From the IMG/VR virus record IMGVR_UViG_3300030329_004647, positions 1-64,000 of that record: a stretch of 64,000 nucleotides of DNA; one strand, written 5' to 3'. The notes beneath the pieces are model-generated. The model was not told the DNA's origin and did not search any database. It saw only the letters and a program-made list of their open reading frames with translations. This document shows positions 30,408 to 60,354 of the stretch, piece after piece; position 1 is the first letter of the stretch; every line of letters starts with the position of its first letter. Source of the stretch: a virus. The translations under genes were made by a program, and so were the position numbers.

Positions 30408-30408
30408 T

Positions 30409-31521
30409 ATGAAAAATATACTTTTAATATTAACTCTATTACCACTTCTTTCTTTTGGACAAACAGACTCACTTAATTTACAACTTAAACAGGATTGGTT
30501 TAAAACCAACGTATTTGATGGGCTAGAGATTTATTTAGCGGGTAGTTATGGTAGACCTAATGATTTTTCTGACCAAACACTATTAGATGATTATGGATTT
30601 ACTATAGGTTTTAAGAAAAAAGCTAGTGAACTGTGTATAACTTGTCCAAAAAATGAATTTGGTAGAAAAGATGAAGAATTAAAAGCAGATGAAGATAAAG
30701 AATCATATGCTTTTAATAAACAAGGTTTAGAGTATAGAATTACCTGGAGTTATTTTAGAGACGATAATAAACCCTTTAAAGAAGACAGACAGTCTGTTAG
30801 ATACACTAAATTATTTAAAAAATGGGGTGTATGGGCTGAAGTAGACCATAGAAATACTATTTTTGATGATATTTCAGAATCAGGGTCCAATCAAGAATAT
30901 GTAAAAGGAGGTATAAGATTATTATTTAGAGCAACAGATTGGTTAAATATTACTGGTGGGGTAAATGCTAGAACAAACCCATTCGTATCATATACTAATG
31001 AGTTTATTAATTGGTATGAGGGAGCTTCTTGGGATACTGAGTCGTCTGCACAAAACGTATTTTATGATTTTAATGGTGATGGTAGTTGGGAAGATACAGA
31101 ATTAGTAGGTACTTACACAGAAATATTAGACCCTGTGTTAAATGAACCTTATGTTACAAATGCATATAATGCAAAAAAAGAAATTTGGGTTGCATCATCA
31201 TCACCTGTAATAGGTTTAGATATTCTTACCGAATCAAGCATCTACTTTTTTAATTTATTTGTTAACATTTATCCTTACCCTTATGATGTCATCACACCTG
31301 AAGTTGAATATGTTTACTCTGGTAATGACGTGGAATTAAAAGCATTTGGTATGGAAGCTGATTGGGCTCCTACTGAATCAATTACAGAATTTGATGCTGG
31401 GTTAGTTATAGGTTTAAAACTTGGTAAAAACTTTTCCGCTGAATTAAACGGAGAAATATCTAATTACTATGGAGTCTATAACTACAGGACTCAAATTGGA
31501 TTAAAATACAAATTAAAGTAA
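30409..31521 (+). CDS. Exported beta-barrel-like outer membrane protein
   Basis: A 370-residue protein with a signal peptide (MKNILLILTLLPLLSFGQ) and alternating aromatic strands to the C-terminus, which ends in the aromatic-rich YNYRTQIGLKYKLK expected for an outer membrane barrel. An internal DFNGDGSWEDTE looks like a calcium-binding loop. It starts 2 bases after the coiled-coil gene and stops 1 base before the TonB-receptor gene, so the five genes look like one operon. Confidence 0.75.
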   Translation: MKNILLILTLLPLLSFGQTDSLNLQLKQDWFKTNVFDGLEIYLAGSYGRPNDFSDQTLLDDYGFTIGFKKKASELCITCPKNEFGRKDEELKADEDKESYAFNKQGLEYRITWSYFRDDNKPFKEDRQSVRYTKLFKKWGVWAEVDHRNTIFDDISESGSNQEYVKGGIRLLFRATDWLNITGGVNARTNPFVSYTNEFINWYEGASWDTESSAQNVFYDFNGDGSWEDTELVGTYTEILDPVLNEPYVTNAYNAKKEIWVASSSPVIGLDILTESSIYFFNLFVNIYPYPYDVITPEVEYVYSGNDVELKAFGMEADWAPTESITEFDAGLVIGLKLGKNFSAELNGEISNYYGVYNYRTQIGLKYKLK

Positions 31522-31522
31522 A

Positions 31523-41847: not shown

Positions 41848-41861
41848 ATATTTATTTGTAT
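41848..41861 (+). promoter_or_regulatory. ATATTTATTTGTAT element (putative phage-specific promoter)
   Basis: The element runs directly into the ATG at 41862, so this giant gene may have a very short or no leader. Confidence 0.45.
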
Positions 41862-44800: not shown

Positions 44801-45815
44801 ACACTCAATCATATTTCCAGTGATTACAAGACAAGACCTTAAAAATTTATTATATGACGAAAAGTCAGAAGAAATGGTTTATAAGGTAATGGGTATATTT
44901 AAAGACTTCAGACCAGGTACTGAAAAATATATGCATCATAAAATAGCTGATGTAATCGCTGATAATCCACAAGAGTTTATTAAAAGGTTACAAGATTTAT
45001 TTCCAGAAAAGAAAATCACAAAAGAAACTTTTTCCAGAATTATAGAAAATATAGATACTACAGAAATAAAATATGCTATAGACCAACAATATAGAACTGA
45101 ACCTGATTTAAAATCTGATATTATACAATCAATACTTGGAGACGAAGAAACAACTGAGGATACTTTTTATTTAAACCCACAAGGTGTAGAATTAAACGTA
45201 CCACCAATCAAAATAGCACAAAAGGTTAGTGATATTAATGATTATGGTGAGATTAATTTTGAAATGCAGGGTGGAAACGGTATCGCTTATTTTACAGATA
45301 AAGACTTAGTAATAAAACTTACAACTGATGAATCTGAATATCACACAGCGACTAAACTACTAGGAACAGAAAATAAACATATTGCTAATGTGTTAGAAAG
45401 TGCAAAAATTAACACTTCACATATAAAAGGTGACCTTTTTATGATAGTAACAGAAGCTTTACATATGACCAAAGAGATGGAAGAAATATGGCACAAATGC
45501 TGTTGTTCAGAAACAGACCCAATTTATATAGATTATACTCAAGAACCAGCTAGACCTATATCACCAGTATCAGAACATGCAATATGTCAACCTATATATG
45601 ATAATATTATATCAATAATTAGTGATTTAACGTCACATGGAATAACTTGGAGTGATATTGGGATAGATAATCTAGGTATTAAAAATGGAAAACTAGCCTT
45701 AATAGACTTAGGAGATAGTCAAGGTGGGTCACTTAAAGGTAAAATACTAACATTAGAAAGGAGAAATGATTTAATACAAAGAGAACTTTTATATGAAGAT
45801 GTATTCCCTAACTAA
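41862..45815 (+). CDS. Giant multidomain putative cargo polyprotein A
   Basis: A 1317-residue protein. A zinc ribbon (CDNCGWNW and CHKCNHN) lies near residues 128-152. Three SH3-like units with the pattern xLxxGDxIxxVDVD occur at about 165, 278 and 384. A helical KLTKDELHSLV / FWEVMKLFG unit with acidic tail (GDYEAHDSE) lies at about 505-670. A possible PD-(D/E)XK nuclease core spans about 766-809 (GHYFEGLLAGLFNGE, then DVLINGINYSAKLV). A protein-kinase-like C-terminus includes GGNGIAYFTDKDLVIKLT, ITWSDIGIDNLGI and LALIDLGDS at 1135-1285. Modules are separated by LNE-H (159), LTE-Q (268), MTE-H (376), ISE-Q (478) and LNE-Q (673), matching T4-type prohead protease sites. A virion-packaged, protease-processed polyprotein is inferred. 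Confidence 0.75.
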   Translation: MKSKTTYYTDDWKEKLVDDFYTEYYPKPRLEQSIFKYLDNLYYISEDEIFGTIYRKSDDYFMGKTQITDDLQNLFGLTLPNLLKIGPGEDDYIEPARNPIPRRVLNNWMKSKRNTERLQKESIVKDSIVCDNCGWNWKIKDGGDDLYICHKCNHNNTPLNEHKESKINPQLMIGDEITVVDVDESFGTLHTPERYKDYVVIGRRHRQPENWEGPDADTSYYVIEPLSGYSDKETLGRMLSGGGRKREEQLHPTDKWMLRKGFLRGEHLTEQKSLKNNLLNVELEEGDKILVVSRKETPAGYREPLPDHDVELFTTYVVIEKRYSGHKAKHPYHYFLLPEEQYEIFINDPYDDSVDKSVKSLFPWIHDWILDNEDIMTEHKESKINPELEVDDIIRIIDVDGEHDRKPEKFKLYRVAYKGNKPIGHGYSWETEPRIWYDIVPTDLDYDTVRTFDSRGTPMYHSKSLYPGDTWIKMDEVISEQSADSPGDNISDDDEEYVDNTPFTKKEILILNQLHKKLTKDELHSLVIDTPGKGSSDYYQHQAKFWEVMKLFGMDYKNDAPYQTRISQYAKWALDNWTPEGDYGKIGNPLKVPLKWYNVSREETGTQVEYKSGEAEVLGFDYDNAEERANNEFWEWGGEMEPFDYGDYEAHDSEITGIDFVRLDEAKRIVKVLNEQDESGLERQIIQAETEDFQELMYEVLRRVRQIPLDKTVSPRRIKEILSDDGVSFDLYQGADLNEEIHREYNRVRFYEYSQQLLKAAHSKGVRGHYFEGLLAGLFNGEVVSPMEGEMTDPKEDVLINGINYSAKLVRAQDKKWGTSSLLGGFKKAIIQRLVDRDIEVPDELLKRKLEVKTLNELVVLFPEGDPDRESFQVRHMELFLKDSSVDRKYKEITMNYAFTSKSEEEIGIELHWIFGLIWGTNETFEGEELPTTNLKYYLMDTPSLIDGILDGDIHFTKGRNIREIRISEKSMIDSNGASEHSIIFPVITRQDLKNLLYDEKSEEMVYKVMGIFKDFRPGTEKYMHHKIADVIADNPQEFIKRLQDLFPEKKITKETFSRIIENIDTTEIKYAIDQQYRTEPDLKSDIIQSILGDEETTEDTFYLNPQGVELNVPPIKIAQKVSDINDYGEINFEMQGGNGIAYFTDKDLVIKLTTDESEYHTATKLLGTENKHIANVLESAKINTSHIKGDLFMIVTEALHMTKEMEEIWHKCCCSETDPIYIDYTQEPARPISPVSEHAICQPIYDNIISIISDLTSHGITWSDIGIDNLGIKNGKLALIDLGDSQGGSLKGKILTLERRNDLIQRELLYEDVFPN

Positions 45816-45838: not shown

Positions 45839-48800
45839 ATGGCCAATACTACATTACATAAAAACAAAATATCTAGAGAAGACCTATTAAGCTTCTACAA
45901 TACCCCAATACCACAGATAGGGGACAGAATACAAATTTTAGAAACCACTAACGTTGTTGAATCAGGTGAGGTTTTTAATGTTAAAGGTGTACACAGAACA
46001 TCCCAAGGTGTCTTTATAAAATTACAAGAAATTAAAGATAGGTTACCTTTATATTTACATGATGAAGAGACGGTAGAAAATACAACTAAAATTCGTATAT
46101 TAAATCCAAAAAATTTCAACAGCCCTCCACAGTCTTTACTAGAAAAAGGTGATTTTATAATGGTAGAAAATACCCCTTCACCTTTATATGTACTTAAACA
46201 AGACAACCATATTGTAGAAACATTAAGTTTACATCCACTAGGTTTGGATATTAAGAAGATAAATTTAAATGAAAGAAAACATAAATTGTTAAAAGAAAAT
46301 GAGGAAAAGACAACTAAATCTAAAATTTATGACAACCCTGAAGTAAAGGTTGATGACAAAGTACAAATTTTACATGTTCACCATCCTAATAGTTTTAATA
46401 AAAAGTATATTGGTGAAACAGGTATAGTAAAAAGAATTAGTCAGAATGAAAGTGAAGTTCACATAGCGGTAGATTTTGGAGAAGATGATTATAGAAGAAT
46501 AGGTAGTGATGTTGTATACCCTATGTTTAAGATAAAAGGAAAGGTACTAGGTGATTTATACCTACGTGACGGTTCCCCTGAACAAGTTTGGGTAGATAGG
46601 GATTTAGTTAGAATAGTACCAGAACCCATCGTTGAACAAAAAGAAAAAGAAGTAAGTCCTGACCTCCAACTAGGAGATAGAATAATGACTTGGGACATAA
46701 CACCAGACGATACACCACCAGGAGGTCTACGTGCTGAAGATGACTGGGAACCACCCAGTACTTTCATAGCTACAGTAATATCGGTATGTGAAGATTGTTA
46801 TAACCCAAAATATGAAAATGGAATAAAGTATGTGGTAAGGATTGATGATACTGGTGAAGAGGTCGGTCTATATGGGGGTGAAATAGTAGAGGACCAGATG
46901 TCAACTAAATTTTCTACAGAATATACCCCAATAACTTATGAAGGTAGAGATAAGTGGATAAAATTACCTAAGTTAGATATTACAGAAGAATCAGATATAT
47001 TTGGACAAGGATTAATGGACCCTATTGAACCTGAGGAGTTTGAGGGTACGGATAAAGATTGGGAAGAGTTAATTAGTGGTATAGAAGAACCAGCAGATGA
47101 ACCTGAATATGAATATGAAGGAGGTAAAACCGACCCAGAAAAAGGGTTTGTTGCCCCATCTAAAGAAGTTACAGATAATATATGTAAAGTTAAAGGATTT
47201 TGTGAAGCTCAAGGACCTATTACATTTGGTCAACTAAAAGAATTAGTTGAAGAAGCAACATCCAAAAGAATCCAAGCAGATATGGGAAGAGGAGCATTCA
47301 AGACTCTATGGAGAATTGTTCCATTCTTTGTCCCTCAAATACTATTACCAGCTATCGGTGTTACAATAACAAGAGCCATCAACAAATTAGTTACTCCAGC
47401 TTTAAAAGATACAAGAGGGTATAAAGAATGGTGGGGAAAAGTTGTATTAAAAGCTATGGATATTGCAGAAGGAGATTACATCCCTGACCTTGCTATGGGT
47501 GATGACCCTATAAGTAAAGTATTCTTTATTTCTGATGGTTTACTACAAATGATTAAAGATAAATACAAACTTAAATTTGCGAGATATGTTGCAGATGTTG
47601 CAGCATCCAAACCAGATGATGAACCAGTTCCAGATTGGTTCGTGGATAATTTACTAAGAGATTACTTAAATCAAAAATTCTTATTAGACCCACCATTACC
47701 CATAAGACAATCAACGAATGATTTAGAAGGAATAGAATTGGAGGAAGATTTAAGAAATTGGGGATATAAAGATGGTAAAATAGGACCACTTAAAGAACAG
47801 ACAGAAGTAGAAGTTGTGGATGATAATATAGGGGGTTTAGATAAGGCAGGTGGTTATGTAGAAAATAGAAAATTTACACCCAAAGAATGTAAAATATTAA
47901 AACTACTATCTAATAGATTTGAGTTTGATGAGTTGCAGAAATTAGTAAATGTAGATTCACATGCATTATCTGGTGAATTCCAGAATAAATGGGGAGACAC
48001 CATGAAATTAATTGGAGAACCTCTTGGTTCAAATGAAACATGGGGTAAATCACTTAGATGGGCATCTTGGATTATTGATAATTACGACTATGTGAGTAGT
48101 ACAGGTGATGGGTTTTGTGATATAGAGAAACCCTTAATAAGATATCCATCTATGTACGAAGTACGGGGAGATGATTCAGGATGGGAAAGAATATATAGAA
48201 GTGGTTATATTGAGGTTCCTGCTTTTGATGAGGATGATGCTTACGATAAAGCTGACAACCATTGGTTTGATTACGAACCAGAGATGGAAACCTCTGATTA
48301 TGGTGATTATGAATCCGATGATGATTTAGAATTAGCGGAACCAGAACACATTAAGACTTTAAAAGAACAACAACTACCATTTAATTCAGACAATAAAAAT
48401 ATAGAAAGAGACCATCCTAAAGGTGAACCTGATTGGTCTATTAGAAGAGGTAGACAACATTATGCTATGAATGTTAAGGATACTAAAAGTGAACCAGTAA
48501 CAGCACTTAATAATTATCTAGTTAAAAACTCACCATTTAACTTTTTAGGTTTTGATTATTATCTAACCGCAGTTCCAGGTAGAATGCCAAACCAAGCTAA
48601 TGTAGATATATTTGTACCTATGTTGGATACAGGATATAATGCTGATAAATTATGGACTACAAGATTTTCACCAGTGGTTAATTTAGATATACATGATGAT
48701 GAGGGTCCATACTTAGAATCTACAATTGAATTTCTCCACCAAATTAGAGCAGATGAAAAATGGCCAGAATATTATATGTATGATGAGGTTAGAGATAAAT

Positions 48801-51202
48801 TTCCTGACCAAGTTAAATCATACGAAGAAAGAGAAAGTGACTACATAAATACACCAGGAGTAAATTACAATAATTCATGGAAAAAGAGAGAAGATTTACT
48901 AGAGGACGAATTAGTTGAGTTAGGTAAATTATTTGGTATTGAACAAATTTTAATCAATAGACAACCATTCTACCCTTGGAAAAGAAAAAAAGATTCTTAT
49001 GGTAATGAAGATATTAGACCAGGAGAAACAGTCCCTAGAGAATACCCAAGACCTATAAAAGAACACGAAGAAAGGGATAGTGAATTTAAACAAGCGGTTC
49101 AAGATGTGGTGTATAAAGTTTATCCTCACATTGTAGAAAACTTAGGAATACCAGATGAAGGAGTTCCTGGAGTAGAATTGTGGGAAGATATCTACGCAAG
49201 ACTTAGTGGGATTGAAGATATGAGGGGTGAAGCTAGTGATACCACTAAAGCAGAATATGTGGATGAAGAGAATATGATATATATCTATTACCCAAATATG
49301 GAAAGTATAGAAGATATAATACGTTCCTTATTACACGAACATACACATTCATTACAAGACCCAGACCGTACAGGACAAAGAGCTGGAGGATATGATTATG
49401 ACCCTAATGAAATAGAAGCTACTGAGGCAGAATCTAATTGGAGAGACTACCTTGTATATGTACAAGAAGACTTAACGGAACAGTCAACAGGAGAACAACC
49501 TATTTTTACAAAGAGATTTCTTACAATTTTAAACTACTTTTTCACCATGAATGATATTAATAGTGCTGAAACTTTCCAAACAGCTTTTAATAGAGAATAC
49601 CCAGGAACAACATGGTACCCAAATTGGTTATATATGGTGTTAATACACAATAGAGATAAATTTGGACTATCGAGTATAGAGAAAGCTGTTAGTACTATAA
49701 AACCAGAGGATTGGGAATTCCCATCAATATGGTCTTATGAAGTAAGTTATTGGGATGAAGGTTATGAAGGTGAAGAAGATGAAGAGTGTGATAGTGATGG
49801 TAGAGGAGAAGAAACTTATGAGGAGTGTGAAGAGTGTCTACGTGCTGTAAAAGAAGTTGAAGATGAAGAGGGGTATGTGGAAGAAGTGAAGTGTGACGAA
49901 TCTGAGCACCCATACTATGACGATGAGGATTGTCGTTGTACAGATTTTGAAGTAATGAAATATACAGTTTGGTATAATCAAACTAGGTATGTGAATTTTT
50001 TAAGTTTAGAACCTTTAGAAAACACCAATGATGTAGGTTACACGTATGGATATGAGGATTGGGATGAAGTAGACTCAGACATAGATTATAACCGAACAAT
50101 TATTACTTCAGAAGAGGAAGAGACTGATTGGGATGATTCACATTTAGAAGAATATAATCTTGAAAGAGAAGGTGATATTATTGGAGTAGATGCTGATGAG
50201 TATGATTCATCGTACGTAAAAAAATACCTAAAAGACTTAGTATCCAAAGTTACAGGTCGTTCAAATCTCGAGGAACAATATGATATGATATCTACCGAAG
50301 AAATAACACAATTAAATAATTTTAAGAATCATATTTGGGATAGTTTAAACCAATTATTTCAAATCAAACCAGACCAAGACGGAGATTTTGATTTTGAGGG
50401 TAAACCTGTTGGGTTATTTCATATTGGGTCGGGAGAAAGAATCCCAATAGAAAATATTTTTGAACCAATCGCTGAAATGTTAAGACTACCTGAAATAACT
50501 AAAAAAGAGATAGCTGTTATGACTGAAGTAATTGTAAGTTGGATTAACCTTAACATGTCTCAAAAAGCACCTTTATATGAGAGATTATTGAGGGAAGAAA
50601 AAGTAGTAGGATTTGATTCACCTAAAAATAACTTTGTAGTTATAGCGGGAGGTCCAGGTGCTGGTAAAAGTTTTATAACTAAAAATTTAGTTAATTTAGA
50701 TGATGTTAAAGAATTTAATGTTGACCAAGTGAGGGTTATGACAGCAAAAAAATTATGGGGAGACGAATGGGAAGAAAATATATCTACAGAAGAAGGATAT
50801 CAAAAAATATTAGATATGACCTACACAACTTCTGACCCTAGAAATCTAACAGTTAAATTTCTTAAAAACTTTTTAACTCAAAAAAGAGAACAACCTGTAA
50901 ATGTTATTTATGATGCTGGTGGGGGACAAGAACAAGTTATGAAAGATGTACATAAAATAGCAAAAGACTCTGGATTTAATACTACATTAGTATATGTCAG
51001 AACTCCTTTAGATGTTGCACAACAAAGAAATTTAGAAAGACCAAGAAGTTTACCTTCTGATATGGTAGCCCAGTATCACCAAAAAGTTAAAGATAATATG
51101 AGAAACATGATTCCTATTTTTGATAATGTTTGGACGGTAGACAATAAAGAACTGATAGATTTATCCAATAGACCTTCGGATAATATAGAAAAGATAAAAT
51201 AA
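45839..51202 (+). CDS. Giant multidomain putative cargo polyprotein B
   Basis: A 1787-residue protein with three SH3-like GDxIxI units (near residues 20, 175 and 277), a hydrophobic domain (TLWRIVPFFVPQILLPAIGV near 490), two or more copies of the helical-plus-acidic DYGDYE unit (near 690-835 and 1220-1400), a zinc-metallopeptidase-like region with HEHTH at 1166-1170 and a following EIEATEAE, and a zeta-toxin-like kinase at the C-terminus (Walker A GGPGAGKS at 1604-1611). Linkers LKE-N (151), IVE-Q (264), LKE-Q (651), LKE-Q (841), LTE-Q (1212), LEE-Q (1477) and LRE-E (1584) match (L/I)xE cleavage sites and fall between domains. It is best read as a processed head-cargo polyprotein that delivers several activities. 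All enzymatic calls rest on motifs. Confidence 0.75.
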   Translation: MANTTLHKNKISREDLLSFYNTPIPQIGDRIQILETTNVVESGEVFNVKGVHRTSQGVFIKLQEIKDRLPLYLHDEETVENTTKIRILNPKNFNSPPQSLLEKGDFIMVENTPSPLYVLKQDNHIVETLSLHPLGLDIKKINLNERKHKLLKENEEKTTKSKIYDNPEVKVDDKVQILHVHHPNSFNKKYIGETGIVKRISQNESEVHIAVDFGEDDYRRIGSDVVYPMFKIKGKVLGDLYLRDGSPEQVWVDRDLVRIVPEPIVEQKEKEVSPDLQLGDRIMTWDITPDDTPPGGLRAEDDWEPPSTFIATVISVCEDCYNPKYENGIKYVVRIDDTGEEVGLYGGEIVEDQMSTKFSTEYTPITYEGRDKWIKLPKLDITEESDIFGQGLMDPIEPEEFEGTDKDWEELISGIEEPADEPEYEYEGGKTDPEKGFVAPSKEVTDNICKVKGFCEAQGPITFGQLKELVEEATSKRIQADMGRGAFKTLWRIVPFFVPQILLPAIGVTITRAINKLVTPALKDTRGYKEWWGKVVLKAMDIAEGDYIPDLAMGDDPISKVFFISDGLLQMIKDKYKLKFARYVADVAASKPDDEPVPDWFVDNLLRDYLNQKFLLDPPLPIRQSTNDLEGIELEEDLRNWGYKDGKIGPLKEQTEVEVVDDNIGGLDKAGGYVENRKFTPKECKILKLLSNRFEFDELQKLVNVDSHALSGEFQNKWGDTMKLIGEPLGSNETWGKSLRWASWIIDNYDYVSSTGDGFCDIEKPLIRYPSMYEVRGDDSGWERIYRSGYIEVPAFDEDDAYDKADNHWFDYEPEMETSDYGDYESDDDLELAEPEHIKTLKEQQLPFNSDNKNIERDHPKGEPDWSIRRGRQHYAMNVKDTKSEPVTALNNYLVKNSPFNFLGFDYYLTAVPGRMPNQANVDIFVPMLDTGYNADKLWTTRFSPVVNLDIHDDEGPYLESTIEFLHQIRADEKWPEYYMYDEVRDKFPDQVKSYEERESDYINTPGVNYNNSWKKREDLLEDELVELGKLFGIEQILINRQPFYPWKRKKDSYGNEDIRPGETVPREYPRPIKEHEERDSEFKQAVQDVVYKVYPHIVENLGIPDEGVPGVELWEDIYARLSGIEDMRGEASDTTKAEYVDEENMIYIYYPNMESIEDIIRSLLHEHTHSLQDPDRTGQRAGGYDYDPNEIEATEAESNWRDYLVYVQEDLTEQSTGEQPIFTKRFLTILNYFFTMNDINSAETFQTAFNREYPGTTWYPNWLYMVLIHNRDKFGLSSIEKAVSTIKPEDWEFPSIWSYEVSYWDEGYEGEEDEECDSDGRGEETYEECEECLRAVKEVEDEEGYVEEVKCDESEHPYYDDEDCRCTDFEVMKYTVWYNQTRYVNFLSLEPLENTNDVGYTYGYEDWDEVDSDIDYNRTIITSEEEETDWDDSHLEEYNLEREGDIIGVDADEYDSSYVKKYLKDLVSKVTGRSNLEEQYDMISTEEITQLNNFKNHIWDSLNQLFQIKPDQDGDFDFEGKPVGLFHIGSGERIPIENIFEPIAEMLRLPEITKKEIAVMTEVIVSWINLNMSQKAPLYERLLREEKVVGFDSPKNNFVVIAGGPGAGKSFITKNLVNLDDVKEFNVDQVRVMTAKKLWGDEWEENISTEEGYQKILDMTYTTSDPRNLTVKFLKNFLTQKREQPVNVIYDAGGGQEQVMKDVHKIAKDSGFNTTLVYVRTPLDVAQQRNLERPRSLPSDMVAQYHQKVKDNMRNMIPIFDNVWTVDNKELIDLSNRPSDNIEKIK

Positions 51203-51751: not shown

Positions 51752-52615
51752 ATGAATAATTTATTTACCTTATCAGAACAAGAAAAAAATAGAATTAGAG
51801 GACTTCATTTAACTGAATCTAAAGATAAAAGACTCACATCTGTATTATGTGAACAAAAAAGTGTTTCAGTACCAAGTAACTGTGTAATGGTAAGCTTTGG
51901 GAGAGGTGAATCTCAAATTGACACAGAAATAGATAGAAATATTGTGGAATTATTAGACAAGGGTATGATGAGAGACCGACCTTTTATTACTATAGAAGCT
52001 GGTACCTCAGGTACAGGAAGTGACGCTGCTAATAGAGAAGTAATGGATGATAGAATTAATGAGGCAATATTATTAGTGATTAAAGCAGCAAAAAATTTGG
52101 TTGGTCCTAGAGGATTAAATTATGCTGAATCAGCAATTCAAAGTAAAATCGATAGACAATACTCATACAACACCATTGAGCCTGGTTCTGTTATAGGAGA
52201 CGAACAAGTTCCAACTGATGAGGACGACCCGTTCTTTAACCAATTTCAATACGTTAAAATTTGTTTTAATGAAGTTTTAGAGACGCCTGAATATGATAGT
52301 ATCGCGGATGAGTTCGTTGAAGCTACCATAGACACCACTTTTGGATATGATGAGGGTACCGTATATTCTATTTTAACAAAGTTACGTGATAAAGATGATT
52401 TTGATGAATTTAACGCTGAATTAAAAAGAGGTAAGTTAAAAATGGACTTTTATGAAATATCTTGCGATAAACTAAGTGCTGATTTAACACCTGGTTGGAT
52501 GGACAAAATATTAGGTACCAGTGGAGAAGTAACTTTAGCTACAGAAATTGGTCCTAGTGATACAACTATTAACGCTCACTTACAGAGACTAGGAGTTCCA
52601 CCAATCAATTGTTAG
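51752..52615 (+). CDS. Putative cargo protein with OmpA-like domain
   Basis: A 287-residue protein starting MNNLFTLSEQEKNRIRGLHL and continuing TES, an alternative (L/I)xE-ending N-terminal peptide, with a second possible site LCE-Q near residue 33. Residues 40-150 have the OmpA-like pattern (VSFGRGESQIDTEIDRNIVE, then ITIEAGTSGTGSDAANREVM), suggestive of peptidoglycan binding. Residues 185-230 contain FGYDEGTVYSILTKLRDKDD, an annexin-like helical repeat. It ends tail to tail with a leftward HAD gene. It could be a virion protein acting at the cell wall. Confidence 0.65.
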   Translation: MNNLFTLSEQEKNRIRGLHLTESKDKRLTSVLCEQKSVSVPSNCVMVSFGRGESQIDTEIDRNIVELLDKGMMRDRPFITIEAGTSGTGSDAANREVMDDRINEAILLVIKAAKNLVGPRGLNYAESAIQSKIDRQYSYNTIEPGSVIGDEQVPTDEDDPFFNQFQYVKICFNEVLETPEYDSIADEFVEATIDTTFGYDEGTVYSILTKLRDKDDFDEFNAELKRGKLKMDFYEISCDKLSADLTPGWMDKILGTSGEVTLATEIGPSDTTINAHLQRLGVPPINC

Positions 52616-53043
52616 ATAGTTTTAATAACCTCTAAGTCTATATTAGGATAATCTTTAATAGTTTCTTTTAGTGAGTTGATATGTTTATCCTTATCCTCCC
52701 AGTATTTTACTCTCGTACAATTAGGATATTTTTTAAGAATTTTTTTAAGTCTATTACCTTTATTACGGTCACCATTCTCAATTAAGTAATAATCCTCAAA
52801 CTTATATCCATACTCTTTTAATAAGTTTTTTAGTGAATTTTTTACTTCTAAAACTCTATTAGATAAGATAAAAAGATGACCACTTTTATCTTTTAAAGCT
52901 TTTTCATAATCTCTTTTAGTGTCCTGTATCACTTCAAACTCTAAGTCAGAATTTAAACTTTCACTTTTATCCATATATTCTATAGATTCTTGATAAGGTA
53001 TTTTTAATATTGTATTGTCAAAGTCGAAAAGGTATATTGTCAT
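52612..53043 (-). CDS. HAD-family phosphatase (HAD_SAK-like)
   Basis: A 143-residue HAD protein beginning MTIYLFDFDNTILKIP (Asp7/Asp9 nucleophile pair), with motif II FILSNR near residue 60 and KYWEDKDKHINSLKE near residue 114. The DFDNT...SNR...EDK.H order recalls the HAD_SAK domain associated with RNA-repair Swiss-army-knife proteins, though here it stands alone. It is leftward, transcribed from a TATCTTTG promoter, inside an otherwise rightward cargo block, and overlaps the OmpA-like gene tail to tail by 4 bases. Confidence 0.75.
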   Translation of the reverse strand: MTIYLFDFDNTILKIPYQESIEYMDKSESLNSDLEFEVIQDTKRDYEKALKDKSGHLFILSNRVLEVKNSLKNLLKEYGYKFEDYYLIENGDRNKGNRLKKILKKYPNCTRVKYWEDKDKHINSLKETIKDYPNIDLEVIKTI

Positions 53044-53062
53044 ATGATATTTTTATTTATTA

Positions 53063-53070
53063 CAAAGATA
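53063..53070 (-). promoter_or_regulatory. Bacteroidota-type -7 element (TATCTTTG, leftward)
   Basis: Read leftward, TATCTTTG lies 19 bases before the ATG of the HAD gene. A rightward phage-type element at 53076 lies back to back with it, so the two promoter classes diverge here within 25 bases. Confidence 0.6.
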
Positions 53071-53075
53071 CTAAA

Positions 53076-53087
53076 TATTTATTATAT
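53076..53087 (+). promoter_or_regulatory. TATTTATTATAT element (putative phage-specific promoter)
   Basis: The element abuts the ATG at 53088, so the longer in-frame start at 53010 is excluded and the mRNA may be nearly leaderless. Confidence 0.5.
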
Positions 53088-53339
53088 ATGAAAGCAAGAA
53101 TCAAAAAAATATTAAGAGAGTTTAACATGGAGATATTGGATAGTGAACCATATAAAGATGGTGAATTGGTTCTAGAATATGTAGATATATATGATTATCC
53201 TAGATATGTTATTTTTCACGAAACTGGTGATACAGAAGAAGGTAATACTGACGGTGAAATAGTAGTGGAATTAGATTCTAGATTTGTGGATGCAGAGATG
53301 GCAAAAGTAATAATGCAATACATAGCTGGTAGAAAGTGA
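53088..53339 (+). CDS. Small putative cargo protein
   Basis: An 83-residue acidic protein starting MKARIKKILREFNMEILDSE. The first 11 residues are the basic amphipathic peptide ending in LRE that recurs in this block. The remainder alternates acidic and beta-like stretches. It overlaps the next gene (GTGA), which starts at GTG. The start at 53088 is set by the promoter-like element and by the conserved peptide. Confidence 0.7.
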   Translation: MKARIKKILREFNMEILDSEPYKDGELVLEYVDIYDYPRYVIFHETGDTEEGNTDGEIVVELDSRFVDAEMAKVIMQYIAGRK

Positions 53340-54706
53340 AGAACTTAATTAAACAAATATTAAAAGAACAAACAGAATCATCAAACCGAGATGAAAAAGT
53401 GGACAACTTAGGACTACCTCCAAATACAAAGTATGATTTTGAGTCAAGAAGTTACATTTCCGTACCTAGAATTTCACGTGCACTTTTTCTTAAGGTAGTA
53501 AGGGGTTTAGTTGATAGTGTGACCAAAGAAAAAGCAATAGAAATAGCTGTTTCTATGGGACATATTGACAGTGATTTATTCTCGGATACTCTTAAATTAT
53601 ATGGGATAGACATTAGAGCCGACCGATTATTAAGTGAAAAATTATTTTGGGCAACATATGATAATTGGGATAGATTTAATAGTGATAACCCACCTCAATC
53701 ATACAACGAATTAGAATTAAGACCTATAAAAAAATACGAAGTTCCAGTAACTGACTATGTTAGTAGAAGTGTTGCTATAGATTATACAGTAACAGAATTC
53801 GCTTATAGTGCCAAGGATGTTAAGGAACTAATACGGAATAATGTTGATGCTGAATATGTTTACTACGAGTGGGAGGACTCTCGTGATTATCGAGAAGAAG
53901 TAGGTGAAGAAGACACTACAGATACTGATGTAGGTGAACCAAAAGAAGTAGCGTTTATAAATGAATCTAGAAATAAAAAAATTATAAACGAAAATCCTAG
54001 TCCACATGAAAATGAATTAATAGATGGTTTAAGAAAAATATTACATAAACAAAAAGAAGCTCATTCCGAAGACGCTTGGTATGATGATATACAACACTTA
54101 TTTAAAAAACTAAACATACCATTAGAAGAACAAAGAAAACCTTTACAAGAAGGTAACCTTCACGGCCTTCCAGTTTATGAGTTCGATAAAATAGACAATA
54201 AAATAGTACAAAATCTACTTAAACAGTATACGTGTTTTGAGATAGACCAAATGAATAGATATAGTGAAGAGTATGTACACGGTCAACTTAGTGATACGTT
54301 AAAACTATACGGAAGACATTTAACTCCAGCTTACGAATATTATCCTAAACAGTTAGTACAATTTATTGTAGATAAAGGATGTCCAGATGATTATACTCAG
54401 TTTATGGGAGAACGATTACCAGATATTAATCAGTATGCAATCGACATGACATATACCGAAACAGATGTAGTCGCAAAAACAGCTGAAGTAATAATACATG
54501 ATACAAACTTCCAATCAGCGATGTGTGCTGCTAGAGATAATTTTTGGGATTATGACCCTGATACGTATGATACTGAGGTAATAGATAGTGATTACCAAGG
54601 TAATGAAGAGTGGACAAGTGTAACTGTAAATGGTACAACAAAATGGAATATACACGGTGGTTCCAAAAATGATGATAACTACAACCCAACGGATGTAGAT
54701 TGTTAA
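53336..54706 (+). CDS. Putative cargo protein with duplicated helical/acidic unit
   Basis: A 456-residue protein starting MKNLIKQILKEQTES (GTG start) with the LKE-Q site. It contains two copies of the unit also found in the giant proteins: helices with SDLFSDTLKLYGID near residue 80 and HGQLSDTLKLYGRH near residue 320, each followed by a strand-rich region and an acidic/Tyr tail (EWEDSRDYREEVGEE; FWDYDPDTYDTEVIDSDYQG). Internal sites INE-S, INE-N and LQE-G (near 205-275) separate the copies. No enzymatic motif is seen. An internal-head structural or effector role is inferred. Confidence 0.72.
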   Translation: MKNLIKQILKEQTESSNRDEKVDNLGLPPNTKYDFESRSYISVPRISRALFLKVVRGLVDSVTKEKAIEIAVSMGHIDSDLFSDTLKLYGIDIRADRLLSEKLFWATYDNWDRFNSDNPPQSYNELELRPIKKYEVPVTDYVSRSVAIDYTVTEFAYSAKDVKELIRNNVDAEYVYYEWEDSRDYREEVGEEDTTDTDVGEPKEVAFINESRNKKIINENPSPHENELIDGLRKILHKQKEAHSEDAWYDDIQHLFKKLNIPLEEQRKPLQEGNLHGLPVYEFDKIDNKIVQNLLKQYTCFEIDQMNRYSEEYVHGQLSDTLKLYGRHLTPAYEYYPKQLVQFIVDKGCPDDYTQFMGERLPDINQYAIDMTYTETDVVAKTAEVIIHDTNFQSAMCAARDNFWDYDPDTYDTEVIDSDYQGNEEWTSVTVNGTTKWNIHGGSKNDDNYNPTDVDC

Positions 54707-54715
54707 ATAAAAAAA

Positions 54716-54726
54716 TATTTATAATA
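54716..54726 (+). promoter_or_regulatory. TATTTATAATA element (putative phage-specific promoter)
   Basis: An exact consensus copy one base before the ATG at 54728. Confidence 0.55.
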
Positions 54727-54727
54727 G

Positions 54728-56170
54728 ATGAAAACCCTAATTAAAAAAATATTAAGAGAAACAAAAGTTAAACTACTTAATGAAAAAACAATGGATTACT
54801 TTCCAGTGGGGAGTGATAACTTTAATGTGGGTTACGATAGAGAAGGTCTAGGAAGAGGTGTTAGACCAAAAGTTTTGGATAAAGATGATAGTATCCAAAA
54901 CAGTGATTATAGTACTAGACATAAAGGAATAGATATATTTGGACCTAAAGGAGAGCCTGTGGTATCACCAGTAGATGGTGTCGTTTCCAAAATAAATAAA
55001 AGAGATAGAGGTAAAGGTGGTAAAACCATTACAATTCTTAGAGATGATGGTTTATCTTTTTACTTATCACATTTAGACACAGTAGGAGATTTTGAATATG
55101 ACGAACCTATTAGTGCGGGACAACAAGTTGGTACTTTAGGAAATACTGGAAACGCTAAAGGAACTCACCCTCATATTCATTTTTCAGTTTATGGGCCAAA
55201 AGGGTATTGGAGAGACAATAGAGACCCCTGGCCTTATTTAAAAAGTACTTTAGGTACAATTGTTAGTAAAACACCAGAAGATGATTATATTCCAGGTGAG
55301 GAAGAAGAATATCAAGAAGATGTTATAGTGATGTGGGACGGTATGAAGAAGGGTAGAAGAGAGAAAAAAGAACAAGTTAGAGAAATACAACAATTACTCA
55401 TAGATAGAAATTATGTGCTGCCTAGATTTGGTGTAGACGGTAGATTTGGTCCAGAAACCTTATCAGCAGTAAAGGCCTTCCAAAAGGATTACATGAGTGA
55501 AGTGAATGGTGAAGTTGGTTCCGAAATGATAGAGTTATTGAAAAATGAAGAGAATATAAATAAAAATCCTGAAATGAATGACCCAATCAAAGTAAAAGAA
55601 TTAAGTAAGGATAAAGAATATAAAAACTTTTCACCAGAAGTATTAGACGCGATAGAACAAGCTAGTAACACATATAACATATCTCTAGAATTATTATTAA
55701 CTATAGCTAGTATTGAGTCTAGTGGAAACCCAAGTGCTAAAAATAGTAAGAGTGGGGCTTCAGGACTATTTCAAATCTTACCTAGATATTTTGATAGTTA
55801 CGGAGTTACAGAAACTACTGTTTGGGACCCATATGTAAATGCCGATGCAGCAGCAAATAAATTAAGTAAAAAACAACAAAAACTAACAAAATTTTTAGGA
55901 CGTGTACCAACAGAAAGTGAACTGTATGTATCACATAATCAAGGCACAACAGGTTTTAAAGTTATCTATACTGCGTGTCAAAACTTTAGTGACCTAGATG
56001 GTGATGAGAGTTTAAAACAAGCAGCGGAAAGTTTAGGATATAACAAAAATTATGGTTACAAAATTTATAAAAACATGAGAGGTAATAAAGGAAGTGACCC
56101 TTGTACTTTTTTAAACTCTTGGGCAAATATTTATGCTTCTAGAGAGAAACAAATTAATCACCTAGTATAA
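54728..56170 (+). CDS. Three-domain virion peptidoglycan hydrolase (M23 peptidase, PG-binding, lytic transglycosylase)
   Basis: A 480-residue protein beginning MKTLIKKILRETKVKLLNEK, with two candidate processing sites (LRE-T and LNE-K). Residues 58-170 are an M23/LytM endopeptidase (HKGIDIFGP His/Asp zinc ligands, then THPHIHFSVYG). Residues 215-260 are a PG_binding_1 repeat (VREIQQLLIDRNY to TLSAVKAFQKDY). Residues 300-440 are a soluble lytic transglycosylase (catalytic Glu in LLTIASIESSGNPSA, then SGASGLFQILPRYF). Together they would cut both stem peptides and glycan strands. The N-terminal peptide suggests packaging in the virion and action on entry. This is one of the clearest functional anchors of the block. 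Confidence 0.92.
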   Translation: MKTLIKKILRETKVKLLNEKTMDYFPVGSDNFNVGYDREGLGRGVRPKVLDKDDSIQNSDYSTRHKGIDIFGPKGEPVVSPVDGVVSKINKRDRGKGGKTITILRDDGLSFYLSHLDTVGDFEYDEPISAGQQVGTLGNTGNAKGTHPHIHFSVYGPKGYWRDNRDPWPYLKSTLGTIVSKTPEDDYIPGEEEEYQEDVIVMWDGMKKGRREKKEQVREIQQLLIDRNYVLPRFGVDGRFGPETLSAVKAFQKDYMSEVNGEVGSEMIELLKNEENINKNPEMNDPIKVKELSKDKEYKNFSPEVLDAIEQASNTYNISLELLLTIASIESSGNPSAKNSKSGASGLFQILPRYFDSYGVTETTVWDPYVNADAAANKLSKKQQKLTKFLGRVPTESELYVSHNQGTTGFKVIYTACQNFSDLDGDESLKQAAESLGYNKNYGYKIYKNMRGNKGSDPCTFLNSWANIYASREKQINHLV

Positions 56171-56182
56171 TACAAAGATAAT

Positions 56183-56413
56183 ATGAAAAAAATTAAATTA
56201 ACAGAAGAAACTCTTGGAAGGATAGTAAAAAGAGTTATAATGGAACAAGAAAAAGAGGAAGGAATTAAACAACTCCATGCCATTCTTAAACGAAAATCAG
56301 AAGGAGAAGATGTGGAGAAAGAACTTAAGGATTTATTTATTAAACACCCTCATTTAGAAAAAATGCTAGGAGCATTAACACCTGAAGGTAAAAAAGAAAA
56401 CATAGGTAAGTAA
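56183..56413 (+). CDS. Small putative cargo protein
   Basis: A 76-residue basic helical protein. The first 22 residues (MKKIKLTEETLGRIVKRVIM plus EQ) form a longer variant of the block's N-terminal peptide, ending IME-Q. I recognise LTExxLxRIVKRVI-type starts from unannotated proteins of marine phages. The rest is a helical bundle-like segment. It sits 12 bases after the hydrolase and 2 bases before the toxin-like gene. Confidence 0.7.
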   Translation: MKKIKLTEETLGRIVKRVIMEQEKEEGIKQLHAILKRKSEGEDVEKELKDLFIKHPHLEKMLGALTPEGKKENIGK

Positions 56414-56415
56414 AC

Positions 56416-57417
56416 ATGAGACAATCAAAAATACTACAAATTATACGGGAAGAAATAGACCACCAAGAAAACGGACTTATTTTTGAGGGAGTAAATTCTT
56501 ATACCCCTACAAAGGGATATAGGAATAACCAACTTATAGAAGTTTATGATAGTAAGGGTAAACAACTTATTAATGAAGGAATGATTGATACTGTACAAAG
56601 TGTTTTAGATTATGCGGGATTTATTCCTGGTATTGGAGACCTTTTAGATGGGGTAAACGCTTTAATTTATATGATAAGAAAAAAGTATTTTTTAGGTGTA
56701 ACTTCTTTAGTTGCGGTTATTCCAGCTGTAGGAAGTGTGATAGCAGCACCATTTAAAGCAGCACACAAATTATTAGGTAAGGCAGCGAATAAATTAGGGA
56801 GTATTTTAGGTAAAATGGTTTCTAATGGTAAGAGTGCAGCTTCAGAATTGATAAAATTGTTACAAAGTGGTGGAACCAAACTTAAAGGGGTGACTGATAA
56901 AATTTATAAAGCTATTTCTAAAAATGTATCTAAAATAAACTCATTCTTAGATAAAGTCATACCAACACTAAATAATAAAATAAAAGATTATTCATGGGGT
57001 TATTTTGCATTACCAAATGCATTTGTTAAATCAGGAAACGCTATCATTAAACAAATGAAACAATTTTTTACACAATTAGGTAAACCAGCGTCCTATCAAG
57101 TTAGTAAAAAAGTAGCAAAGAGTGAGGTAAAGAAAGAACTTAAACCAGAAGAAAAAAAGACTAATTATAAAAACTATATAGCAAAATTAAGTAAAAAATA
57201 CAATGTACTCCGATATGGTAAAGAAAATGATTGGGGACAAAATAGATATGCGTTTTATAATAAAGATTGGCATTTTATTTGTCCAGATGGTTCTACGGGA
57301 AAAGCTTGTACCACTAGTAAAACCAAAGAGTTTACTCATGGTATTGTAAAACTCGCTGACGATAATAAAGCTAAGATAGCTCTAAAAAATTATATGGACG
57401 CTAAAAAAACAGCTTAA
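56416..57417 (+). CDS. Putative cargo protein with pretoxin/translocation-like hydrophobic domain
   Basis: A 333-residue protein starting MRQSKILQIIREEIDHQE, with IRE-E and later LINE-G (near residue 54) as candidate cleavage sites. Residues 57-115 contain VLDYAGFIPGIGDLLDGVNA and then FLGVTSLVAVIPAVGSVI, a hydrophobic hairpin very like the segments that precede toxin domains in polymorphic secreted toxins. A Lys-rich amphipathic region follows, then a C-terminal domain (YNVLRYGKENDWGQNRYAFY, CPDGSTGKACTT). A membrane-inserting role during genome entry is plausible. Toxin activity is not shown. Confidence 0.7.
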   Translation: MRQSKILQIIREEIDHQENGLIFEGVNSYTPTKGYRNNQLIEVYDSKGKQLINEGMIDTVQSVLDYAGFIPGIGDLLDGVNALIYMIRKKYFLGVTSLVAVIPAVGSVIAAPFKAAHKLLGKAANKLGSILGKMVSNGKSAASELIKLLQSGGTKLKGVTDKIYKAISKNVSKINSFLDKVIPTLNNKIKDYSWGYFALPNAFVKSGNAIIKQMKQFFTQLGKPASYQVSKKVAKSEVKKELKPEEKKTNYKNYIAKLSKKYNVLRYGKENDWGQNRYAFYNKDWHFICPDGSTGKACTTSKTKEFTHGIVKLADDNKAKIALKNYMDAKKTA

Positions 57418-58512
57418 ATGAAAGATATAATTAAAAAAATATTAAGAGAACAAATTTCTACTGAATTAGAACAAGACCTTAATGCTTTTCATCCAGATTT
57501 ATTTGAATTAGAAGAAGGTAAAAAGAAGAAGAAAAAAAAGAAAAAAGCTAAGAGAGACGCTTGTTATCATAAAGTTAAAAGTAGATATAAGGTTTGGCCT
57601 TCAGCTTATGCTTCAGGAGCTCTTGTTAAATGTAGAAAGGTTGGAGCAAAAAATTGGGGTAATAGTACAAAAGAAGGGGTTAAGTTAGATGAAGGAATGT
57701 ATGGTATGTCAGAACCATTAGATTATGTTGTAGTAGATATGAGAAATTTAAGACCACTCATGATGAACTATGGAGATGGTCAATATTATGAAAAATGGCA
57801 AACAGAATTAGACGCTCAAAAATCAGCAGACGACTTAAATAGAGCTTACCAAAAAACATATGGTGCGGTAGAAGGACCCCATGTTGTTATGTATAAATCT
57901 GATTACTTTACTGAAAAAAGAAAAGAAGATATGATGGAGGGTAAGAAGAGAAAGTTAACCAAAAAACCTAGTTCAGAAACAAGTTTAAGAGATTGGTTTG
58001 GTAGAAAAGGTGCTAAAGGAAGTACTGGAGGTTGGGTAGATTGTAACGCACCAGATGGGAAAGGTGGTTATAAATCTTGTGGAAGAAAAGAAGGTGAAAG
58101 TAGAAAAAAATACCCAGCATGTAGACCTACACCAGCTGCATGTAAAAGTAAAGGAAAAGGAAAAAAGTGGGGTAAAAAGAGTAAAAATGAATCTATAACA
58201 GAACAATATGGTAATTTTGTTAGATGGGGTGAGTTAATAACCGAGGCAGAGTATAAAGGTAGAAAAGTAAAACTTAATAAACCAACTAGAGGTGATGTTA
58301 AGAAGTTTAAGGTTTATGTTAAAAACGATAAAGGTAATGTAGTTAAAGTTAACTTTGGTCATGGAGGTACTTCGGCAAAAAAGAGAGGAGAAAAAACAAT
58401 GAGAATTAAAAAAAGTAATCCTGAAAGAAGGAAAGCTTTTAGAGCGAGACATAATTGTGACAACCCAGGACCAAAATGGAAAGCTAGATATTGGTCATGT
58501 AAAGCTTGGTAA
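57418..58512 (+). CDS. Putative cargo polyprotein of basic Cys-containing domains
   Basis: A 364-residue, strongly basic protein starting MKDIIKKILREQISTELEQD. A Lys run (residues 35-45) leads to domain 1 (ACYHKVKSRYKVWPSAYASG, residues 47-80). Domain 2 spans about 170-250 (SLRDWFGRKGAKGS, then GGWVDCNAPDG and YPACRPTPAAC), domain 3 about 285-364 (KFKVYVKNDKGNVVKVNFG, RARHNCDNPGP, ARYWSCKAW). I recognise these three domains as uncharacterised DUFs of marine T4-like phages (DUF5872/DUF6321-like by memory). ITE-Q and ITE-A sites lie between domains 2 and 3. The high charge fits DNA-binding internal head proteins. Confidence 0.78.
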   Translation: MKDIIKKILREQISTELEQDLNAFHPDLFELEEGKKKKKKKKKAKRDACYHKVKSRYKVWPSAYASGALVKCRKVGAKNWGNSTKEGVKLDEGMYGMSEPLDYVVVDMRNLRPLMMNYGDGQYYEKWQTELDAQKSADDLNRAYQKTYGAVEGPHVVMYKSDYFTEKRKEDMMEGKKRKLTKKPSSETSLRDWFGRKGAKGSTGGWVDCNAPDGKGGYKSCGRKEGESRKKYPACRPTPAACKSKGKGKKWGKKSKNESITEQYGNFVRWGELITEAEYKGRKVKLNKPTRGDVKKFKVYVKNDKGNVVKVNFGHGGTSAKKRGEKTMRIKKSNPERRKAFRARHNCDNPGPKWKARYWSCKAW

Positions 58513-58514
58513 CT

Positions 58515-59108
58515 ATGAAACTCCTAGATGTGTTATCGGAACAAATAGAAAGTAATTCTAATCAAGTAGAAAAAAGACTTAGAACACTATTCAGTGCAAT
58601 GCAGGACATCAAAGGAATAGACAACGTCGTGGGGTGTATATCATCAGAAAAATCTAGAGAAAATTGTATGGGTCGTCAGGGGTATATTGTAACCCAAACT
58701 GAGGTTTTGTCATTATTAAGATTATTTGGATATAATGCTTTGGATAAGATGAGATTTGACCAATTTGACATGTTTTATTGGTTAGCTACTTGTTTTATAG
58801 CGAACGGTGGTTACGCAAGGACTTTTAGTCAAGGACCTCTAGAGGCAGTTAATTTAGAAATAAATGTGAGAGAAATGCAAGCTGAATATGATGAAGAACG
58901 TATAGAAACAAGAGAGGGATGGGGTGATTTATATGATATGAGTGATGATGAGGATGCTAAACAATATTATTTAGATAATTTTGAGAGTTTAATGACGGAT
59001 AATGAACACCTAGATGATGATTGGGGTGATATAATAGATGTAAGAAACCCACAGGTAGTTGCACATAGAATAATAAAACTCAACCCTGAATGGATAGGAC
59101 TAAAATGA
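58515..59108 (+). CDS. Putative cargo protein
   Basis: A 197-residue acidic protein starting MKLLDVLSEQIESNSNQ (LSE-Q site). It contains the LLRLFGYNALDKMRFDQFD helices and a WGDLYDMSDDEDAKQYYLDN acidic segment similar in kind to the repeated units of the giant proteins. The start at the ATG at 58515 is chosen over a TTG within the preceding gene. Its stop overlaps the next ATG. Confidence 0.7.
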   Translation: MKLLDVLSEQIESNSNQVEKRLRTLFSAMQDIKGIDNVVGCISSEKSRENCMGRQGYIVTQTEVLSLLRLFGYNALDKMRFDQFDMFYWLATCFIANGGYARTFSQGPLEAVNLEINVREMQAEYDEERIETREGWGDLYDMSDDEDAKQYYLDNFESLMTDNEHLDDDWGDIIDVRNPQVVAHRIIKLNPEWIGLK

Positions 59109-59821
59109 AAGATTTAATTAAAAAAATATTAAAAGAAGAATTGTTAACTGAATCTGCGTTTACACAAGAAATTGCTGTAGACCTATGGAAAAATGTTCTT
59201 GCGTATCCACAAAATAGAACTAAAAAAACTTATGATTACTTAGATTATGTTGATGGAGAAACAGCATTTGGTGCTTTACACTGGACTACCAGTGGATTTC
59301 CACAACTCTATGAGATTATGGGTAATACTATAACTAAACATTATTTTGGTAAAACTGTAGAAGAAATGATAGAGTTTAGTAAGAGTGTAAATGGTGAAGA
59401 ATTAGAGTATGAATGGTGGGAAGACGGTATGAACGACTTTATAAATGGACCTTACAACGAATCCGTCCAAAATCAAGCAATCCATGATAAATTCAGTCAA
59501 AAATTTGCTAGGAGTAAATATGGTGGTGTAATAAATAAATGGACAACACTAAGAGAATTTGCTATAGGAATGTCTTTAATTAATTCTGCTCCGGCGTGTT
59601 TTTTAAGAGGAAAACAATATGGGTGGGACGCTGAAGAAATGATGAGAGATTATTGTAAAGGTACTGGAGAGAAAAGTAATATTCCATCTTCTGAAGAATC
59701 CGGCTGTTATAAAACAAGGGGGTGTAGAAGTAGATGTGAAAACATCAATAAATTTTATCCAGCGCCTAGTAAAAGTGGTTATGTCTGGTCTGACGAAGAA
59801 CATGATAAGTATTGTTCATGA
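59105..59821 (+). CDS. Putative cargo protein, possible glycan hydrolase
   Basis: A 238-residue protein starting MKDLIKKILKEELLTESAFT, with LKE-E and LTE-S sites. The body contains TYDYLDYVDGETAFGALHWT (near residue 42) and NKWTTLREFAIGMSLINSAP, a pattern faintly reminiscent of lysozyme-fold chitosanases, and a C-terminal Cys cluster (CYKTRGCRSRCENI). The enzyme call is speculative. It overlaps both neighbours by ATGA. Confidence 0.65.
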   Translation: MKDLIKKILKEELLTESAFTQEIAVDLWKNVLAYPQNRTKKTYDYLDYVDGETAFGALHWTTSGFPQLYEIMGNTITKHYFGKTVEEMIEFSKSVNGEELEYEWWEDGMNDFINGPYNESVQNQAIHDKFSQKFARSKYGGVINKWTTLREFAIGMSLINSAPACFLRGKQYGWDAEEMMRDYCKGTGEKSNIPSSEESGCYKTRGCRSRCENINKFYPAPSKSGYVWSDEEHDKYCS

Positions 59822-60354
59822 GACGGTTAATCCAAAGAATACTCCTAGAAGAAACAACCTCTAAAGTTTTATTAGTTTTCGGTGGTATAAATCAAGCTAC
59901 TCCAGAATGGATGGGGAATCAAATTCCTAGTAGAATTAAAAATCAGTACGATAAAATAATCCTCAAAAGTTATAGAAGTAGAGATTTGTTAGAATCAATA
60001 GACTCTCTTAAAGAAATGAAAAACACCAATATTAGTGTAGTAGGTTTTTCACAAGGAGGTCTCAATACCTACAGATTAGCCAATAGTGGTGTAAAGTTAG
60101 ACTTTCTAGGTTTAATAGACCCATCAGTTAAAAGTGACTGGTCATTAAAAGGATTTCCTTCCGGTCGAAATTCTGTGTTATTCTACAATAATAAAAACTG
60201 GGGTAAACAGTACTATGACAAATACATTGTGTGGAGAAATGAATTAGCGGAAGAGATGAGAAGTAGTGGTATGGAAGTAGTAGAAGAAGATTTAAATCCA
60301 CATATAAATGACCATATGTTATTCCCTAGAGAATTTTTTAATAGGTTTATGTAG
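59818..60354 (+). CDS. Alpha/beta hydrolase-like putative cargo protein
   Basis: A 178-residue protein starting MRRLIQRILLEETTSK, again an (L/I)xE peptide. The body is a small alpha/beta hydrolase: strand KVLLVFGGIN, nucleophile elbow VVGFSQGGLN (Ser near residue 78), an acidic LIDPS turn and a late His (INDHMLF). The full triad order Ser-Asp-His is present. A lipase, esterase or peptidase acting on the cell envelope is possible. It is the last gene of the rightward cargo operon and overlaps the preceding gene by ATGA. Confidence 0.75.
   Translation: MRRLIQRILLEETTSKVLLVFGGINQATPEWMGNQIPSRIKNQYDKIILKSYRSRDLLESIDSLKEMKNTNISVVGFSQGGLNTYRLANSGVKLDFLGLIDPSVKSDWSLKGFPSGRNSVLFYNNKNWGKQYYDKYIVWRNELAEEMRSSGMEVVEEDLNPHINDHMLFPREFFNRFM

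Follow-up and report, generated by a model that had tools for sequence, protein, structure and literature searches.

In bacteriophage T4, short N-terminal leaders bind proteins to the prohead core, the prohead protease gp21 cuts behind (L/I)xE, and the freed bodies are injected with the DNA (PMC5694885, PMC12373910). The T4 internal proteins have only this leader in common and were discovered through it (PMC12373910; PMC5694885), and all three anti-defence proteins found in this way later turned out to be inhibitors of type IV restriction enzymes (PMC12373910). In the giant phages SPN3US and phiKZ as well, a prohead protease strips N-terminal propeptides off head cargo, and gp53 and gp54 have an identical 15-residue N-terminus (PMC5694885). 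Here, we describe the first 64 kb (hereafter the window) of the IMG/VR record IMGVR_UViG_3300030329_004647, the 232,028-bp genome of a large, uncultured, T4-like phage, in which many proteins carry one of a few short leaders ending in (L/I)xE or a close variant. We read these shared N-termini as interchangeable capsid-targeting propeptides that would be cut by the S77 protease of the same genome, an interpretation which is drawn from sequence comparison and to which we assign a probability of about 0.8.

Like T4 IPI-III, the system combines a short N-terminal leader on unrelated proteins, an (L/I)xE end, an S77 protease and a gp23-type capsid protein. Unlike IPI-III, its class-1 leader (MKxLIKKILxE) is not homologous to MKTYQEFIAE, at least three interchangeable leader classes are present, with swaps between orthologs, and the cargo amounts to tens of proteins per genome, recognisable enzymes among them. 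The closest T4 look-alike of class 1 is the gp24 propeptide MAKINELLRE|S (a vertical bar marks the predicted cleavage site in leader sequences), with its ten residues, amphipathic character and LLRE end; gp24, however, is a shell protein, whereas the class-1 leader stands on many non-shell proteins. The propeptides of SPN3US and phiKZ differ in being mostly longer than 100 residues and in ending in AxE or SxE, and a genome-wide interchangeable short tag has not been reported for these phages.

Leader swapping on the same bodies is, as far as sequences can tell, the strongest evidence for this interpretation. Among the fetched loci, 11 body families occur with more than one leader class, and (L/I)xE is retained beside the body. 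The superoxide dismutase at genome position 176690 (minus strand) illustrates this: the alignment with PDB enzymes shows homology from residue 21 onwards and includes the metal-binding His, His, Asp, His motifs. The enzyme is found with the leader MRNLIKKILNE|NIIAE|A, and its viral orthologs carry class 1 followed by an LLTE|A-like site or begin with the leaders MKIIITESQYNLILE|S, MINFDTVYGILE|G or MKIINFYDYLPINE|A; in L174 (L and G codes denote related virus loci or contigs) the class-1 glutamate is gone (ILRS) but LLTE|A is kept. Close relatives of the wall hydrolase at 54728 were not found in IMG/VR, and VanY was set aside as a swap test, its relatives being fusions with a short MRSYINE start and hence not clean.

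Class 2 has the consensus MxxIxLTExxLxxLIxxVxE, and class 3 reads LSExEKxRIRxLH or NRIRxxMGL..LxEQ. The leaders of the window, with lengths in amino acids (aa), are as follows.

11216-11233 (+): possible very short leader MSIILE|N of a 521-aa protein (11216-12781); its relative in L123 has the class-2 leader MKIILTEEQYKSLINE|N
16507-16545 (-): leader MKLVNIIKNLVYE|Q of a 364-aa protein (15451-16545, minus strand)
17058-17096 (+): leader MNLFENIKILLKE|D of a 595-aa protein (17058-18845), the body of which is paralogous to the 18848 protein
18848-18877 (+): leader MKGLDKILLE|G of a 512-aa protein (18848-20386); the leaders of its relatives differ in length and sequence, every one ending (I/L)(L/I)xE|G
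51752-51817 (+): class-3 leader MNNLFTLSEQEKNRIRGLHLTE|S of a 287-aa protein (51752-52615), with a conserved further site SVLCE|Q at residue 34; the L054 ortholog reads MKNVLTISEEEKNRIRGLHLTE|SKNNRITSVLSE|E
53088-53120 (+): class-1 leader MKARIKKILRE|F of an 83-aa protein (53088-53339); the L054 ortholog has MKALIKKILNE
53336-53368 (+): class-1 leader MKNLIKQILKE|Q of a 456-aa protein (53336-54706) that matches no family
54728-54760 (+): class-1 leader MKTLIKKILRE|T of a peptidoglycan hydrolase (54728-56170; Peptidase_M23, PG_binding_1 and SLT), with a possible additional site LLNE|K at residue 19
56183-56245 (+): class-2 leader MKKIKLTEETLGRIVKRVIME|Q of a 76-aa protein (56183-56413)
56416-56451 (+): class-1-like leader MRQSKILQIIRE|E of a 333-aa protein (56416-57417) with hydrophobic segments and no convincing family
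57418-57450 (+): class-1 leader MKDIIKKILRE|Q of a 364-aa lysine-rich multi-module protein (57418-58512), whose orthologs have either a class-1 or a class-2 leader
58515-58541 (+): short leader MKLLDVLSE|Q of a 197-aa protein (58515-59108)
59105-59137 (+): class-1 leader MKDLIKKILKE|ELLTE|S of a 238-aa protein (59105-59821) that matches no family
59818-59850 (+): class-1 leader MRRLIQRILLE|E, predicted in a partial model to be helical over residues 2-11, of a 178-aa protein (59818-60354) with a GFSQGG motif

The original prediction had picked out six near-identical N-termini, at 53088, 53336, 54728, 57418, 59105 and 59818, and all six are present, the one at 53336 with a GTG start. The genes it had named as bearing related versions all exist as well, those at 51752 and 56183 having leaders of other classes (class 3 and class 2); its minus-strand member is a real gene (16545 to 15451) with the leader at 16545, not at 15451. 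Its set of 13 proteins with a single type of leader proved too narrow, as the set is bigger, extends well beyond the window and comprises at least three leader classes.

Beyond the six near-identical leaders, the genome has roughly a dozen others of the class-1 type. Outside the window, class-1-type leaders were found at 80750 (MKSIIQKLLRE), 88836 (MQLGLVRVLLE), 96777 (MKKIIKKILKE), 98622 (minus; MKTLPKKLQRLIKE), 108607 (MYNRKKIIYRLLKE), 163389 (minus; MTLYNIFKNIILE), 176690 (minus; MRNLIKKILNE) and 209331 (MKPLIKKVLRE). Class 2 occurs at 56183, 64766, 69361, 72877, 84958 and 185366 and, in weaker form, at 78674, 102970 and 126834 (minus); class 3 occurs at 51752, 65699, 67319, 67871, 68415, 70008, 78998, 83314, 86140, 95971, 120721 and 123945. 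In total, approximately 30 to 40 genes of the 232-kb genome are tagged, a number that varies with the strictness of the class definition. The class-3 gene at 120721-123327 (16721-19327 in L004) lies right behind the capsid gene and encodes an 868-aa protein with a second, internal class-3-like segment, LSEVNRIREIMGLKILTE|Q, so that it resembles a fusion of two tagged proteins. Flavobacterium phage immuto (L011, L012, L013), which is cultured and related by its capsid protein, has candidate leaders of its own: MSLINEIKQILSE|V, MQKLAGIITE|S, MKKSQLRQIIKE|A, MQFLAGIITE and MIKLIDLLTE.

Of 235 gene starts, 9 matched a strict regular expression for the leader; it matched no internal methionine (of 1,513) and gave no hit when residues 2-25 were shuffled 2,000 times. 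With a loose expression, 20/235 starts matched, versus 21/1,428 internal methionines (Fisher p 8e-8). Because both expressions were derived from the very data tested, independent tests were made in IMG/VR. Written as degenerate codons, the class-1 leader was found there in at least 119 stretches, and the matches that we read lay at gene starts, a median of 4 codons past a stop. It fronts at least 52 body-distinct proteins from at least 35 unrelated families, which bears out the initial claim that unrelated bodies stand behind one N-terminus. A codon-permuted control returned one 12-codon open reading frame (ORF), on three contigs. Across prokaryote genomes totalling 257 Gb, the class-1 pattern occurred in 11 stretches, and the clear matches were two genes on one Prochlorococcus single-cell-genome contig, a virus contig also present in IMG/VR; the other matches were apparently due to chance or to unrelated proteins. 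The class-2 search used residues 1-9 only, leaving the cleavage site unspecified, and yielded 59 body-distinct proteins in 42 families; (L/I/M/V)xE with its glutamate at residue 15 or 16 was present in 36 of the 59, where about 2 were expected.

Leader codons differ for identical residues, and since synonymous codons vary, the leader must be conserved at the level of the protein. A promoter, ribosome-binding enhancer or recombination site over the start codon has, for this reason, next to no chance of being what makes the N-termini alike: many tagged genes do lie contiguously in one block, but it is residues and reading frame that are conserved, and relatives have unrelated leader DNA. The peptide itself is cationic, amphipathic and strongly conserved in class 1, its moment being reached by 2% of shuffles, properties which would also suit an amphipathic helix bound for the host membrane or another cell site, with no involvement of the head. 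We give this explanation a very slim chance, given that class-2 leaders, which are no such cationic helices, substitute for class 1 on the same bodies, that the final glutamate is invariant and that leaders occur on soluble enzymes.

The gp21-type prohead protease on which the original prediction turned is encoded at genome 116587-117303. It matches S77 (PF03420, gp21-type) with an E value of 4e-26, above the curated cut-off, and its catalytic motifs, ELNHP for His and GISSRG for Ser, are shared with T4 gp21. The gene order is T4-like (portal, protease, scaffold, capsid protein), with a gp22-like scaffold at 117402. The phage's own gp23-type capsid protein carries the site LINE|A, and (L/I)(I/L)(N/S)E|(A/T/S) recurs near residue 60 in the capsid proteins of the phage and 13 related contigs, at a position occupied by LTE|A in T4 gp23 and by VSE|A in immuto. 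Cargo-loading peptides that work without cleavage exist in encapsulins, and the strong conservation of the amphipathic class-1 peptide would fit leaders that remain uncleaved and dock cargo onto a virion component, the terminal glutamate serving in binding. There is a slim chance that this is so: sequence-unrelated leaders retain only (L/I)xE at the body, the same type of site is found in the capsid protein and at a polyprotein junction, and an S77 protease is encoded.

S77 was found in 13 of 30 class-1 contigs of at least 50 kb, precisely the 13 that have full-length gp23, and in 10 of 18 large class-2 contigs, including every one that has gp23. As side observations on these head genes, short (~145 aa) gp23-like ORFs occur at G002:C1:185783, G006:C1:118719 and G009:C1:41829 and in G018, G023 and G029, some beside a second fragment and with a full-length capsid gene present or absent. 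In G073 (268,739 bp), S77 protease and gp23 are each encoded twice, G047 (241,978 bp) has two adjacent gp23 genes, and in G064:C1:50212-51849 and G072:C1:52406-53980 the S77 match is spread over ORFs of ~630 aa, denoting a large insertion or fusion.

Sites of the same type also appear inside two large proteins of the window.

41856-45815 (+): 1,319-aa candidate polyprotein, with a zinc-finger module at about 42222-42362
45839-51202 (+): 1,787-aa candidate polyprotein, with a C-terminal AAA_33/zeta-toxin-like kinase at 50597-51199

In the 41856 protein, LNE|HK, LTE|QK, MTE|HK and ISE|Q lie between modules. Its zinc-finger module is class-1-tagged in L119, L057 and L113, and in L211-L215 stands within another large protein, fused to the membrane module of the 45839 protein. 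A kinase-like motif at its C terminus had no Pfam match, and the model of it (mean pLDDT, the predicted local distance difference test score, of 42) was discarded. In the 45839 protein, which also has an HEHTH metallopeptidase-like motif and a membrane module common to L060, L123 and L211, the kinase forms the final 200 residues, behind an internal LLRE|EKVVGF. Seven related loci encode this kinase as a separate leader-bearing gene, and the stand-alone junctions LLKE|EKVV, LLLE|EKVI, FLSE|EKVI and LMTE|AKVV align with the internal LLRE|EKVV. Both proteins bear some resemblance to the polyvalent proteins, which are multi-domain, have peptidase and kinase domains and are predicted to be co-injected with DNA (PMC5512222). 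Unlike in polyvalent proteins, for which the published proposal is chiefly self-processing via internal metallopeptidases (PMC5512222), the modules here are bounded by prohead-protease-type sites, and relatives have them as separately tagged genes.

Most tagged bodies have no family match. The recognisable ones are M23+PG_binding+SLT (54728), VanY carboxypeptidase (70008), PAP2 (80750), DeoC-like aldolase (95971), WYL (163389, minus) and Fe/Mn superoxide dismutase (176690, minus). The wall hydrolase that the original prediction had placed in the set has Peptidase_M23, PG_binding_1 and SLT domains (54728). Its "hydrolase" at 59818 comes down to the GFSQGG motif, with no family match and, from a partial model, no PDB fold match with E <0.001; for its "toxin-translocation-like" protein at 56416, Pfam offered no support and a translocation domain was not found. 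The tagged proteins might instead be packaged and trimmed as head-core or structural components that mostly work in assembly, few or none acting in the host. Two genes have neighbours that fit this, 209331 (66 aa; conserved in relatives) lying directly before a probable gp25, and 108607 just upstream of the terminase gene. We nevertheless hold it unlikely, since an assembly role is not obvious for a superoxide dismutase with intact metal motifs, the M23/SLT and VanY hydrolases, PAP2 or the zeta-like kinase, and since tagged bodies differ greatly among relatives.

Several observations weigh against reading the N-termini as cleaved capsid-targeting propeptides. In most cases, the residue behind the class-1 leader (P1') is E, S, D or N, as against A/T/S in the capsid protein, which makes the efficiency at the class-1 site uncertain. 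Second sites downstream of class-1 leaders showed no general enrichment, and we therefore claim a second site for particular families only. The 41856 and 45839 polyproteins are without a leader of any of the three classes. S77 is missing from 5 of 16 class-1 contigs of at least ~95 kb and from 8 of 18 class-2 contigs of at least ~85 kb; these contigs look like fragments without the head region, because they also lack full-length gp23. As S77 was present in 2 of 6 comparison contigs of at least 95 kb, the co-occurrence is consistent with the reading and weak on its own. Lastly, we found no virion proteome of this or a closely related virus. The propeptide reading, as originally put forward, agreed with every computational test made (S77, capsid site, swaps), and has to be amended in that the leaders form at least three classes and are not MKTYQEFIAE-like.

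Our working model is that, during head assembly, the leader would dock its protein onto the prohead core, the likeliest partner being the gp22-like scaffold (117402), and that the S77 protease would cut behind the terminal (L/I/M/V)xE, presumably as it does at LINE|A of the capsid protein. Released in this way, the bodies would remain with the DNA in the head, and most would be ejected to act early in the next host; wall hydrolases, PAP2 phosphatase, superoxide dismutase and zeta-like kinase would be among them, along with numerous unknowns. Large multi-domain proteins may be cut at additional internal sites into single effectors. We see an even chance that this amounts to a modular delivery code of aquatic T4-like phages, in which unrelated interchangeable leaders and one protease site would bring dozens of cargo proteins into each virion, some of them entire enzymes (superoxide dismutase, for example) and others polyproteins cut into effectors inside the capsid.

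The host group is probably marine-type Bacteroidota. At window positions 26046-33928, the phage encodes a type IX secretion sorting domain (Por_Secre_tail, 3e-10) in a protein of 1,123 aa, as well as a complete TonB-dependent receptor (Plug 1.2e-23, barrel 2.5e-22), which point to a Bacteroidota host. Other genes of the window include polyphosphate kinase 2, ClpP and S-adenosylmethionine synthetase (2623-3474, 12991-13662 on the minus strand and 13676-14734 on the minus strand). Elsewhere in the genome, 75811-78282 (minus; also in L002) encodes an 823-aa protein that is phosphoenolpyruvate synthase-like by eye, and DnaK-like and Clp ATPase-like genes are located at 101041 and 98675.

T-even phages are already known to have capsid-targeting leaders and whole batteries of injected proteins, and phiKZ-like phages to have propeptides on ejection proteins. 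Relative to the literature that we searched, the novelty lies in the leader family itself, in its division into interchangeable classes, in how many cargo proteins there are and of what kinds, and in their arrangement as polyproteins. Leader swapping would provide a clean test of the propeptide reading, which predicts a prohead protease that acts as polyprotein processor for effectors and a superoxide dismutase carried in phage heads. If the leaders work as in T-even phages, the injected proteins of a large uncultured phage group could be listed straight from metagenomes, and hundreds of unknown proteins would be given a place and time of action.

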